From: Flavobacteriia bacterium
Lineage (GTDB): Bacteria; Bacteroidota; Bacteroidia; Flavobacteriales; Flavobacteriaceae
Reading direction: 5' to 3'
Assembly: GCA_011330545.1 (NCBI GenBank)
Contig: DRQI01000142.1
Coordinates: 1 to 15,910, forward strand
Length of the DNA: 15,910 nucleotides
Shown: positions 3,258 to 15,910 of the stretch, one piece after another
Position numbering within the stretch: the stretch's first letter is position 1
Layout of the letters: each line of letters starts with the position of its first letter
Program-made: the position numbers and the translations under genes
Notes under the pieces: model-generated
What the model saw: only the letters and a program-made list of their open reading frames with translations
Database searches by the model: none
What the model was told of the DNA's origin: nothing

Positions 3258-3961
3258 AAAAGAAAATTTATATTGTTGAAGACGAACCTTTAATTGCAGA
3301 TTCTATTGCCCACGCCCTTGAAAAAGATGGTTATAGCGTTTGCGGCATTGCTGATAATGCTAAAGAAGCCCTTTATGATATTGAAGAGTTATGTCCTGAT
3401 TTAATTTTATTAGACATTAATATTGTGGGTACCATTACCGGTGTAGCGTTGGCCGGAAAAATCAATAAAAAATTCAAAATACCATTTATATTTTTAACCT
3501 CATTAGCTGATGAAGATACTATCAATAAAGTCAAAGAAACCAATCCTTCAGGGTTTTTAAGTAAGCCTTTTAATGAAGCCGGGTTGCGGTCAAATATAGA
3601 AATAGCCCTTTTTAAATTTGAACAGAAAAAAGAAGAGAAAAAACTAATAGAAAATTCGTTTTTTGTTAAAAATAGGGGCGAGTTGGTAAAAGTAAATAAA
3701 ACAGATATACAGTATGTTGAAGCCTATGATAATTATTCAAAACTAGTCTGTTGCAGCAATGAATATTTATTGAGCTTTACATTGAAAAAAGTATCTGAAA
3801 AGTTAGACGACGCTAATTTTATTAGAATACACCGCTCTTACCTTATCAATATTAATAAAATTGATTCTCTTTTTGACGGGTATGTTTTTATTAATAATAA
3901 AAAATTGCCCATAGGAAAATCGTATAAAGAGGCTCTTATGAGTTCTATTTCGCTGCTTTAA
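3254..3961 (+). CDS. LytTR-family response regulator (REC-LytTR)
   Basis: The protein has 235 residues and two domains. The receiver domain (about 3-120) has the acidic pocket Glu9/Asp10, the phosphoacceptor Asp54 in LILLDINI, Thr82 in FLTS and Lys104 in SKPF. The LytTR DNA-binding domain (about 134-235) has VNKTDIQYVEAYDNYSKL, FIRIHRSYLININKI and KLPIGKSYKEAL, which are the conserved positions of that beta-rich fold. LytTR proteins bind short direct repeats spaced about two helical turns apart. The repeats at 4084-4140, just downstream, have exactly 21-bp spacing and are a natural candidate target. The start overlaps the kinase stop, confirming an operon. It is probably a transcriptional activator of the secreted-protein genes that follow; that last point is inference. 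Confidence 0.93.
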   Translation: MKKKIYIVEDEPLIADSIAHALEKDGYSVCGIADNAKEALYDIEELCPDLILLDINIVGTITGVALAGKINKKFKIPFIFLTSLADEDTINKVKETNPSGFLSKPFNEAGLRSNIEIALFKFEQKKEEKKLIENSFFVKNRGELVKVNKTDIQYVEAYDNYSKLVCCSNEYLLSFTLKKVSEKLDDANFIRIHRSYLININKIDSLFDGYVFINNKKLPIGKSYKEALMSSISLL

Positions 3962-14324: not shown

Positions 14325-15266
14325 TTACATTAAAAATTGATCACTGATAGATTGATTGGTTTGCACCTTATGCATCACGTCAGCGAATAAGGGGGCGCAA
14401 GATATAACTTTTATTTTAGAAATTTGCTTTTTTAATGGGATAGTATCGGTTATAATTAATTCTAATAATTTCGAATTTTCAATACGCTCATAAGCCTTAC
14501 CCGAAAGCACCCCATGGGTACAAATGGCACGTACGCTTTTGGCGCCTTTTTCTAGCATTAAACCGGCAGCTTTTGCCAATGTTCCGGCAGTGTCTACCAT
14601 GTCATCAACAATGATTACATTTCTGCCTTTTACCTCGCCGATAAGTTCCATGTGAGAGATTACATTTGCTTTTTTTCGTTGTTTGTAGCAAATAACAACT
14701 TCACTTTCAAGAAACTTAGAATAAGCATATGCCCTTTTAGAACCGCCCATATCAGGTGAAGCAATGGTAATATTGTCTAAGTTTAAACTTTTAATGGCAG
14801 GCAAAAAAATAGTTGACGCATATAAATGGTCAACTGGTTTTTCAAAAAATCCTTGAATTTGGTCGGCGTGTAAATCCATCGTAACAATTCGGGTAGCGCC
14901 GGCTGCTTGCAATAAATTGGCTATCATTTTTGCGGCGATGGGTACTCTCGGCTTGTCTTTTCTATCTTGCCGTGCCCATCCGAAATAAGGAATAACAGCG
15001 GTGATATGCCTGGCCGATGCGCGTTTGGCAGCATCAATCATCAAGAGCATTTCCATTAAATTATCTGAAGACGGAAAGGTAGAGCCGATGATAAAAATGC
15101 GTCGTCCCCGTATAGATTCTTCGAAAGAAACTTGGAATTCTCCATCGCTGAAAATATTTTTTTTAGATTTTCCGAGCTCTGTGCCGTAAGCTTTGGCTAT
15201 TTTTTGTGCCAATTCTATTGATTGAGAACAAGCAAAGAGCTTGGGTTTGGGTACTTTAAGTTTCAT
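14325..15266 (-). CDS. prs: Ribose-phosphate pyrophosphokinase (PRPP synthetase)
   Basis: Prs transfers pyrophosphate from ATP to ribose-5-phosphate to make PRPP, needed for purine, pyrimidine, NAD, histidine and tryptophan synthesis. The protein has 313 residues, the usual class I length. Key motifs are FSDGEFQVSFEESIRG (39-54), the flexible catalytic loop YFGWARQDRKDKPR (94-107), TMDLHADQIQGFF with active-site His133 (129-141), SPDMGGSKRA (170-179), and the PRPP-binding loop VIIVDDMVDTAGTL (217-230). Gene order prs-rplY-pth on one strand is usual in Bacteroidota. A -7-like box at 15314-15321 lies upstream. Confidence 0.98.
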   Translation of the reverse strand: MKLKVPKPKLFACSQSIELAQKIAKAYGTELGKSKKNIFSDGEFQVSFEESIRGRRIFIIGSTFPSSDNLMEMLLMIDAAKRASARHITAVIPYFGWARQDRKDKPRVPIAAKMIANLLQAAGATRIVTMDLHADQIQGFFEKPVDHLYASTIFLPAIKSLNLDNITIASPDMGGSKRAYAYSKFLESEVVICYKQRKKANVISHMELIGEVKGRNVIIVDDMVDTAGTLAKAAGLMLEKGAKSVRAICTHGVLSGKAYERIENSKLLELIITDTIPLKKQISKIKVISCAPLFADVMHKVQTNQSISDQFLM

Positions 15267-15385: not shown

Positions 15386-15393
15386 TAGCTTTG
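15386..15393 (+). promoter_or_regulatory. Putative -7 box of the tRNA-Leu locus
   Basis: TAGCTTTG, followed by CA, matches TAnnTTTG. It lies 20 bp before the first base of the broken tRNA-Leu fragment, as expected for the original promoter of a tRNA gene. In the present arrangement it would transcribe the fragment, the GIY-YIG gene and the intact tRNA together. Confidence 0.5.
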
Positions 15394-15422
15394 CAGTCTG
15401 AATTTTATTTTTTGCCTTGGTG

Positions 15423-15442
15423 CCTGCCTGCCGGTAGGCAGG
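15423..15442. repeat. Palindromic repeat inserted in the tRNA fragment, copy A
   Basis: CCTGCCTGCCGGTAGGCAGG is a palindrome with one mismatched pair. It separates base 9 from base 10 of the tRNA-Leu sequence, as shown by comparison with the intact copy at 15742. A diverged copy lies at 4010-4027. Confidence 0.85.
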
Positions 15443-15456
15443 GCGGAATTGGTAGA

Positions 15457-15475
15457 CCTGCCTACCGCAGGCAGG
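15457..15475. repeat. Palindromic repeat inserted in the tRNA fragment, copy B (inverted)
   Basis: CCTGCCTACCGCAGGCAGG is the reverse complement of copy A with one base deleted. It interrupts the tRNA-Leu sequence near base 23-24; the exact edge is ambiguous by one C. Only 14 bases of tRNA sequence separate copies A and B. Confidence 0.85.
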
Positions 15476-15481
15476 CGCGCT

Positions 15482-15770
15482 TAAAGATTGAAATGTATTA
15501 CGTATATGCAATATCAAGTTTAGGACATAATTATATTTATGTAGGATTAACACAAGATATTGAAAAACGGATAAAAAGGCATAATGACGGTAGAGAAAGA
15601 ACTACGAAATTTTATAGGCCTTTTGAATTAATATATTCAGAGGTTTGTAATACTAGAATGGAAGCTAGAACACGAGAAAAGTATTGGAAATCTGGTATTG
15701 GTAAAGAGAAGTTGCGAAAAATTAGAGATTCTCTAAAATAGGCCTTGGTGGCGGAATTGGTAGACGCGCT
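15482..15770 (+). mobile_element. Candidate GIY-YIG cassette that restored tRNA-Leu
   Basis: Removing this interval would join the upstream 29-base fragment (without its two palindromes) to base 30 onward of the intact tRNA and recreate one complete tRNA-Leu gene. The interval consists of the GIY-YIG gene plus a second copy of the tRNA's first 29 bases. This is the layout left when an element enters a tRNA gene and supplies a replacement end. No integrase is present and the boundaries are inferred from the 29-base direct repeat only. Confidence 0.4.
15493..15741 (+). CDS. Small GIY-YIG nuclease-domain protein
   Basis: From the ATG at 15493 the protein has 82 residues and is a single GIY-YIG domain: MYYVYAISSLGHNYIYVGLT carries the YVY...YVG pair of the motif. 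RIKRHNDGRERTTKFYRPFEL follows with the catalytic-type Arg and the conserved HN...T.....P segment, then Glu in TRMEARTREKYWKSGIGKEKL. This matches the stand-alone UvrC-like GIY-YIG proteins common in Bacteroidota. The domain cleaves DNA or RNA in related proteins, but the target here is unknown. The frame is open upstream to 15391, but that part would translate the tRNA fragment and palindromes (GGIGR, LPAGRQ), so I reject the longer start. Its TAG stop ends at 15741, and the intact tRNA-Leu begins at 15742. Confidence 0.88.
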   Translation: MYYVYAISSLGHNYIYVGLTQDIEKRIKRHNDGRERTTKFYRPFELIYSEVCNTRMEARTREKYWKSGIGKEKLRKIRDSLK

Positions 15771-15825
15771 GGATTCAAAATCCAGTTCTGGCAACGGAGT
15801 GTGGGTTCGATTCCCACCCAAGGTA
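15742..15825 (+). tRNA. tRNA-Leu (anticodon CAA)
   Basis: This 84-nt class II tRNA has acceptor strands GCCTTGG (15742-15748) and CCAAGGT (15818-15824), with G1-U72 as a wobble pair and discriminator A at 15825. The D arm contains GAATTGGTAGAC. The anticodon stem is CTGGA/TCCAG with loop TTCAAAA and anticodon CAA at 15776-15778, reading UUG. The long variable arm is TCTG-GCAA-CGGA, and the T arm is GTGGG-TTCGATT-CCCAC. CCA is not encoded. Its first base directly follows the stop codon of the GIY-YIG gene, so it has no promoter of its own nearby and probably depends on the one at 15386. Confidence 0.97.
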
Positions 15826-15831
15826 CAAAAG

Positions 15832-15858
15832 CCTCAACAGTGATGTTGAGGTTTTTTT
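15832..15858 (+). terminator. Rho-independent terminator after tRNA-Leu
   Basis: CCTCAAC (15832-15838) pairs with GTTGAGG (15845-15851) around a 6-nt loop and is followed by seven T. It starts seven bases past the tRNA and ends this transcription unit. Confidence 0.9.
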
Positions 15859-15910
15859 ATAAAGAACTAATAAATATAAATACTAGACGTTATTGCTATG
15901 TTATTTACTA

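Follow-up and report, generated by a model that had tools for sequence, protein, structure and literature searches.

A small gene for a putative GIY-YIG nuclease lies near the end of the window, as we call the whole stretch of 15,910 nucleotides that was analysed (contig C142; the draft genome comprises 544 contigs totalling 3.13 Mb, and its relatives mark it as flavobacterial), with a broken 5′ piece of a tRNA-Leu gene on one side and an intact tRNA-Leu(CAA) gene on the other. The same architecture recurs at tRNA genes of many relatives, and we think it probable, though by no means assured, that it represents a minimal selfish cassette: a free-standing gene for a homing-type endonuclease that occupies tRNA genes and restores the gene it enters, while hairpins put the second copy out of action. 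The features of the locus are as follows, those from the box to the intact tRNA being in order on the + strand.

14325–15266, − strand: prs-like gene (presumably prs), a conserved neighbour outside the cassette that, by sequence, marks the same chromosomal site in relatives
15386–15394, + strand: TAnnTTTGC box ahead of the tRNA-Leu fragment, read in the sequence and taken by us to be the −7 box of a promoter; L139 and L143–L145 have a similar box ahead of their empty-site tRNA
15414–15422, + strand: tRNA-Leu fragment, tRNA positions 1–9, identical to 15742–15750
15423–15442, + strand: 20-nt near-palindrome CCTGCCTGCCGGTAGGCAGG at the linker/D-stem border of the fragment, read in the sequence
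15443–15456, + strand: tRNA-Leu fragment, tRNA positions 10–23 (5′ strand of the D-stem and D-loop), identical to the intact tRNA
15457–15475, + strand: 19-nt near-palindrome CCTGCCTACCGCAGGCAGG at the border of the D-loop and the 3′ strand of the D-stem, read in the sequence
15476–15481, + strand: tRNA-Leu fragment, tRNA positions 24–29, from sequence comparison
15493–15741, + strand: GIY-YIG nuclease gene (82 amino acids; PF01541), its stop codon abutting the tRNA
15742–15826, + strand: intact tRNA-Leu(CAA) (ARAGORN; Rfam RF00005, 60.8 bits)

An earlier note on this DNA had reported a duplication of the first 29 bases of tRNA-Leu(CAA), with a broken copy upstream and a GIY-YIG gene in between, and sequence comparison, ARAGORN/Rfam and PF01541 confirm it. 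The breaks are hairpin inserts, which that note had not mentioned: the two near-palindromes (20 and 19 nt) split the upstream copy (15414–15481) into 9 + 14 + 6 bases. Alignment of the fragment with the tRNA scored 37, whereas 20 shuffles reached 18 at most. For the first palindrome, 0.04 matches were expected in the window and two were found, at a single place read on both strands. Given that the stop codon of the nuclease gene abuts the tRNA, the latter appears to lack a promoter of its own; it is probably co-transcribed with the nuclease gene. Between the two tRNA copies of the window there is no recombinase, the GIY-YIG open reading frame occupying that space, and no intron RNA was found at the locus, where RF00005 alone among Rfam models reached its threshold in the window and the downstream tRNA is contiguous. 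No second full-length tRNA-Leu(CAA) was among the matches listed for the draft genome, the others being a weaker partial match and contig C442 (L147), which overlaps 15766–15910 of the window, starts at tRNA position 25 and may reflect a variant strain or a branch in the assembly. By eye, another locus of the same genome (L011; C496:112, reverse strand) holds a second tRNA-Arg-like piece, whose anticodon loop contains a palindrome; behind it another GIY-YIG frame begins and is cut off by the contig edge.

The window protein matches PF01541 with an E value of 1.2e-18 (67.6 bits, cut-off 22.6), residues Y5, Y16, G18, R26, H30 and E62 are invariant across 21 sequences, and by sequence the protein is a predicted member of the GIY-YIG nuclease superfamily. 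An NCBIfam search with it returned no family. Its nearest solved relatives by sequence (PDB 1ywl, E 8e-9; 1zg2, E 5e-8) are UPF0213-type proteins, which resemble it in being a small single GIY-YIG domain and for which we know of no link with tRNA fragments or hairpins; weak profile matches point to homing endonucleases (PHROG 5123, E 6e-4; PADLOC HEase, E 0.0015). The cassette gene appears to be under purifying selection, with dN/dS of 0.10–0.11 for the window gene against L016–L018 (dS saturated) and of 0.05–0.37 in 13 chosen pairs (dS saturated in several). Short or broken copies occur in L036, L047, L069 and L078, as expected for homing genes, which decay after fixation in the homing cycle.

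Relatives were sought with six peptide patterns in one genome for each of 84,980 species, a scan whose reach is close relatives, and 72 loci encoding them were returned. By record labels these are mostly from Bacteroidota, with singles from Moraniibacteriota (L070), WOR-3 (L071), Chlorobiota (L076) and a few others, and are largely metagenome bins. A prs-like gene lies within the fetched flank in 42 of the 72 (in L026 as a partial match ~3 kb off), mostly together with what we take to be an L25-like gene. Within the phylum of the window, the protein family was found at E 1e-12 in 86 of 198 sampled genomes, the window's own included; among the 29 best-scoring other genomes, for which tRNA adjacency was examined, the best match had a same-strand tRNA within 200 bp in 26. 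Phage and plasmid records gave weak matches (two phage records and one plasmid), none convincing as a vector, and viral contigs gave no match within a search that reaches close relatives.

Adjacency to tRNA genes was surveyed in the window and L016–L116 (102 sources, the gene being found in 101). At matches of at least 60 bits, a tRNA lies within 600 bp in 72 of 78 loci, on the gene's strand in all 72; five of the remaining six end at a contig edge (L020, L051, L056, L057 and L081), and in L038 the tRNA bears a hairpin. A same-strand tRNA at this distance was found in four of five loci at 45–60 bits, one of them being a tmRNA, and in 6 of 18 under 45 bits. A tmRNA lies 441 bp upstream in L096; it was dropped as a target, as no fragment there exceeded shuffles. 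The tRNAs used include Leu, Arg, Ser, Ala, Pro, Asp, His, Val, Cys and Met, counts that retain three doubtful ARAGORN labels: L080 (Pro; true neighbour beyond the contig end), L083 (Gln; a tRNA-Leu without an anticodon arm) and L100 (SeC; really a tRNA-Val 3′ fragment). From its position outside any intron or intein and next to its presumed target, the gene appears to be free-standing. Two loci involve protein genes. In L094, the GIY-YIG gene precedes an epimerase-like gene, and upstream of it lie a small hairpin and a diverged copy of the 5′ part of the epimerase-like gene, which is the same architecture on a protein gene; in L191, it lies within a gene that looks by eye like a tyrosine recombinase, at the motif LLGH/KSVKNTMIYTH, and is flanked by a 17-base inverted repeat.

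On the far side of the gene, 70 of 76 loci, the window included, show part of the same tRNA again. Each of the 70 beats its own shuffles, which rules out a chance repeat, and the recurrence of the structure in many separately assembled genomes rules out an assembly artefact. This test left out L075, L080, L085 and L087 (short flanks), loci under 39 bits, loci without a same-strand tRNA within 600 bp and the tmRNA locus. Genes without a fragment, which the earlier note would have counted against its reading, are few: six of the 76 fail the shuffle test, yet L035, L037 and L090 among them show a fragment by eye, and the genes of L072, L086 and L092, which show none, look truncated or frameshifted.

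Two layouts occur, one with the 5′ fragment, gene and intact tRNA in that order and a mirror image with the intact tRNA, gene and 3′ fragment, the last often followed by a terminator-like hairpin. Among loci of at least 39 bits, the nearest ARAGORN tRNA follows the gene in 63 and precedes it in 18, and both layouts are present beside the prs/tRNA-Leu site in different species. The 5′ half is therefore not a special feature, contrary to the earlier note. The proposal that a cassette had entered the tRNA gene holds in that the tRNA is restored and the unit has one gene, for a GIY-YIG protein, and no integrase; entry within the anticodon stem is not general, since the fragments end at varying points (about 29 to 58) and the feature that recurs is the D-loop/D-stem border or the T arm. 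Tandem arrays also occur; L202 comprises eight units and L203 five. Regeneration of the tRNA is not universal, given that no ARAGORN-recognised tRNA accompanies the eight units of L202 in the 5.5 kb fetched, that L038 has an otherwise complete tRNA with a D-loop hairpin where the intact tRNA is expected, and that in L198 the gene is followed by no more than the 3′ part of a tRNA-Arg-like sequence, which has a hairpin in the D-loop and lacks a recognisable 5′ acceptor strand. Speculatively, the product in L038 could have arisen when the intact tRNA was cut and then repaired off the fragment.

In L021 and L026, a second junction is present at the same tRNA-Leu, where the native tRNA is broken after about position 43 and followed by a complete tRNA-Leu of different type with similar downstream sequence, an arrangement like that at the end of an integrative island. 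Such island-like junctions, and the combination of a restored tRNA with a partial one reminiscent of attL/attR, would be accommodated if the cassettes were remnants of classical integrase-type islands at a tRNA attachment site. We regard this as extremely unlikely, as the ~330-bp unit holds no recombinase, the part that recurs across loci is the GIY-YIG gene and both ends of the tRNA are used.

The tRNA class follows the protein tree, changing twice on it against a minimum of 15 in 100 shuffles (71 of 80 rows with a class, the labels of L083, L080 and L100 being assigned by hand), and the tree separates Leu/Ser targets from other tRNAs; it has few columns and many unsupported forks, and leaves out eight proteins of <50 amino acids, L099 and matches under 40 bits. 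This tracking of tRNA class, with the fragment preceding the gene in 5′ types, could also suit a toxin–antitoxin-like pair acting at the RNA level, in which the protein cuts the tRNA and the hairpin-bearing fragment serves as an RNA decoy. We give this little credence: the fragment follows the gene in 3′ types and fragments often retain one arm only, the insertions at the epimerase-like gene (L094) and inside the recombinase-like gene (L191) fit it poorly, and it leaves the adjacent intact tRNA unaccounted for.

Outside the hairpins, fragment and intact tRNA are mostly identical, species-specific acceptor bases included. Since most fragments are nearly the same as the intact tRNA there, decay of an old tRNA copy is rejected as the principal explanation. 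The same identity, and the duplication of promoter-side bases as well in L040 and L070, would be expected from a target-site duplication, in which staggered cuts and long fill-in make both tRNA copies the host's own and no donor tRNA is carried. We judge this unlikely. The duplication is variable in length (about 24 to >60 nt), the cassette has no enzyme for such an insertion, the upstream epimerase-like piece of L094 differs from the intact copy at several positions, and the copies are of different type at the displaced sites of L021/L026 and in L033, where the fragment is from one tRNA-Leu type and the intact tRNA of another. The mixed types of L033 are what a donor origin of the restored tRNA would produce.

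Hairpins are a regular feature of the fragments. A strong stem (score of at least 16) is present on the fragment side in 67 of the 70 loci, compared with 67 of 345 control segments, and at least 49 of the 70 fragments have a counted insertion, the 5–6 matching bases after the hairpin often falling below the gap cost. The junctions could be placed outside a helix in 57 of 60 cases, with 41.3 expected under the same lenient rule (P 4e-7, an optimistic value because the loci are related); the three exceptions are tRNA-Pro pseudo-copies in which the anticodon arm is seemingly replaced by another hairpin. Recurring positions are the 3′ border of the D-loop (Leu, Arg, Ala and Asp), the linker/D-stem border and, in 3′ types, the T-stem/T-loop border or the T-loop. 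Indeed, both junctions of the window recur: the insertion at the linker/D-stem border is found to within a base in L024, L030, L032, L036, L042, L045, L050 and L060, and that at the D-loop/3′ D-stem border in other Leu loci (GGTAGA^CGC), in Arg (GGATA^GAAT/GAGC) and in Ala. An exact uninterrupted D arm is absent from 51 of 52 5′-type fragments (mislabelled L100 left out; 52 of 53 with it).

Cassette-less alleles exist at the same site, consistent with the earlier expectation of an empty site in relatives. The tRNA-Leu(CAA) locus lacks a GIY-YIG gene in 29 of 29 relatives' genomes collected for it (25 with at least 400 bp on both sides), and the filled locus L148 and empty locus L146 show a good upstream alignment with one 339-bp insertion; the same-genus empty sites L143 and L144 align more loosely with the window. 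A duplication already present without the gene would have spoken against insertion of the cassette. No 5′ copy upstream exceeded shuffles at the 29 gene-less loci (the side of L119 being too short for the test), although in L140 a 15-base copy of the 3′ end lies downstream of the tRNA and may be an old scar. Elsewhere, hairpin-bearing tRNA 3′ copies with no GIY-YIG gene before the intact tRNA occur in L167 (about 1501–1662) and downstream in L033 (about 3380–3490), and are possible solo scars.

A tRNA-homing role for the gene, as the earlier note proposed, is plausible. We infer from sequence comparison both that the nuclease cuts and homes into tRNA genes and that the hairpins protect the second copy from cutting or recombination. 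The nuclease would cut an empty tRNA gene in an arm (the D arm for 5′-type and the T arm for 3′-type cassettes), and the break would be repaired by recombination from a cassette-bearing copy, the tRNA fragment on one side and the complete tRNA on the other serving as homology arms. The gene would thereby be left between a partial and a complete tRNA, and the tRNA would survive. By destroying the arm in the partial copy, the hairpins would leave neither a second cut site nor a clean direct repeat through which the cassette could excise itself, and repeated rounds would give rise to tandem arrays.

Several observations sit less easily with this homing cassette. In 10 of 48 filled tRNA-Leu(CAA) loci, the restored tRNA is identical over 81 nt to an empty-site tRNA, and protection through an altered restored tRNA was not observed; the donor thus keeps a target, which counts against a textbook homing system. 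According to PMC13096335, free-standing GIY-YIG enzymes typically cut their donor with low efficiency, which would soften the objection from an unchanged, presumably cleavable, restored tRNA. In addition, one recurring hairpin sequence is not an obvious by-product of break repair, and at the prs site vertical inheritance of old insertions could account for many of the cassettes. The loci without a regenerated tRNA, the incomplete loss of the SegB-like motif from 3′-type fragments described below and the absence of a convincing vector among the phage, plasmid and viral sequences searched also count against it.

Free-standing GIY-YIG homing endonucleases are a known kind. Integrative elements likewise enter tRNA genes and then restore them, but they use recombinases and carry cargo, whereas the cassette has a single nuclease gene and no recombinase. 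Group I introns with GIY-YIG genes also occur in tRNA genes; here, by contrast, no intron model matched and the downstream tRNA is uninterrupted. SegB has more than the catalytic domain, in contrast to the 82-amino-acid window protein, and, compared by description, belongs to phages, whereas the genes described here are chromosomal. In the accessible text of PMC13096335 and PMC2988022, SegB of phages T4 and T6 is a free-standing GIY-YIG homing endonuclease in a tRNA cluster; the purified enzyme cuts within tRNA genes by SITE-seq (PMC13096335), and tandem amplification of segB with a tRNA requires its nuclease activity (PMC13096335; PMC2988022). The likeness thus extends to a GIY-YIG nuclease gene beside tRNA genes, cutting inside tRNA genes and nuclease–tRNA tandem amplification, as these texts present SegB; a regenerated tRNA and a hairpin-bearing fragment in the cassette are not described for SegB in the same texts (PMC13096335; PMC2988022). 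In our own reading, the SegB motif RAWTSGAAC, GTTCSAWTY on the other strand, fits the tRNA T-loop. The SegB-like motif is lost from only six of the nine 3′-type fragments whose intact tRNA has it, which rules out that the hairpin always breaks it.

Among the matches listed in the open-licence literature, the combination of a regenerated tRNA, use of both tRNA ends and a hairpin-bearing remnant in bacterial chromosomes was not described. If homing is correct, the cassette would be a very small self-spreading element (~330 bases) that resides in tRNA genes and leaves a usable copy in most loci, and it would account for pseudo-tRNAs with hairpins, for incomplete tRNA copies and for many small GIY-YIG proteins without an assigned function. 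It would also offer a natural test case of how homing nucleases spare their own chromosome, and it raises the new question of what places hairpins at tRNA loop borders.

The protein itself may have a part in this placement, as relatives with the gene more often contain the CCTGCC palindrome, which occurs in 7 of 10 genomes with a GIY-YIG match of at least 40 bits and in 10 of 50 without (Fisher P 0.003, ignoring kinship and palindromes inside cassettes). One explanation built on this is that the GIY-YIG protein acts on hairpins or helix–loop borders and itself inserts palindromes, comparable to SLX1 on branched DNA or to REP hairpins moved by RAYT transposases. The position of junctions at helix/loop borders would agree with it, as would the unlike hairpin sequences found at the same D-loop border across lineages (CCTGCC.., CCCGCCCG.. 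and TCCCGAG..), a distant SLX1 match (E 5e-4) and repeat copies in the window's own genome that differ by an 18–20 nt palindrome. We nevertheless doubt it, as the palindrome is present in those 10 genomes without such a match, common layouts have no hairpin at both cassette ends and Y1-transposase genes compete as a palindrome source (11/27 versus 6/33, P 0.08), with two Y1 matches in the window's own genome, one on a contig with the palindrome repeat. REP/RAYT and Rickettsia palindromic elements are likewise short palindromes inserted in genomes, RAYT being a Y1 transposase, whereas the palindromes described here lie in tRNA fragments beside a GIY-YIG gene. Short of probable, though a serious possibility in our view, is a distinct and widespread minimal mobile element, in which a one-gene GIY-YIG cassette would enter a conserved gene (mostly tRNA, sometimes protein) and regenerate it, the same machinery marking the leftover copy with hairpins at helix–loop borders, at sites chosen by structure and sequence.

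In the window's own genome, L004–L010, L012 and L015 form a repeat family of stacked hairpins whose copies vary in having the 18–20 nt palindrome, and a weak Y1-transposase match shares a contig with one copy (L009). In five 3′-type loci (L052, L056, L059, L061 and L065), the GIY-YIG frame enters the tRNA fragment and its stop codon is supplied by the palindrome, so that the protein tails read ..GLSTDR or ..GLSADR.
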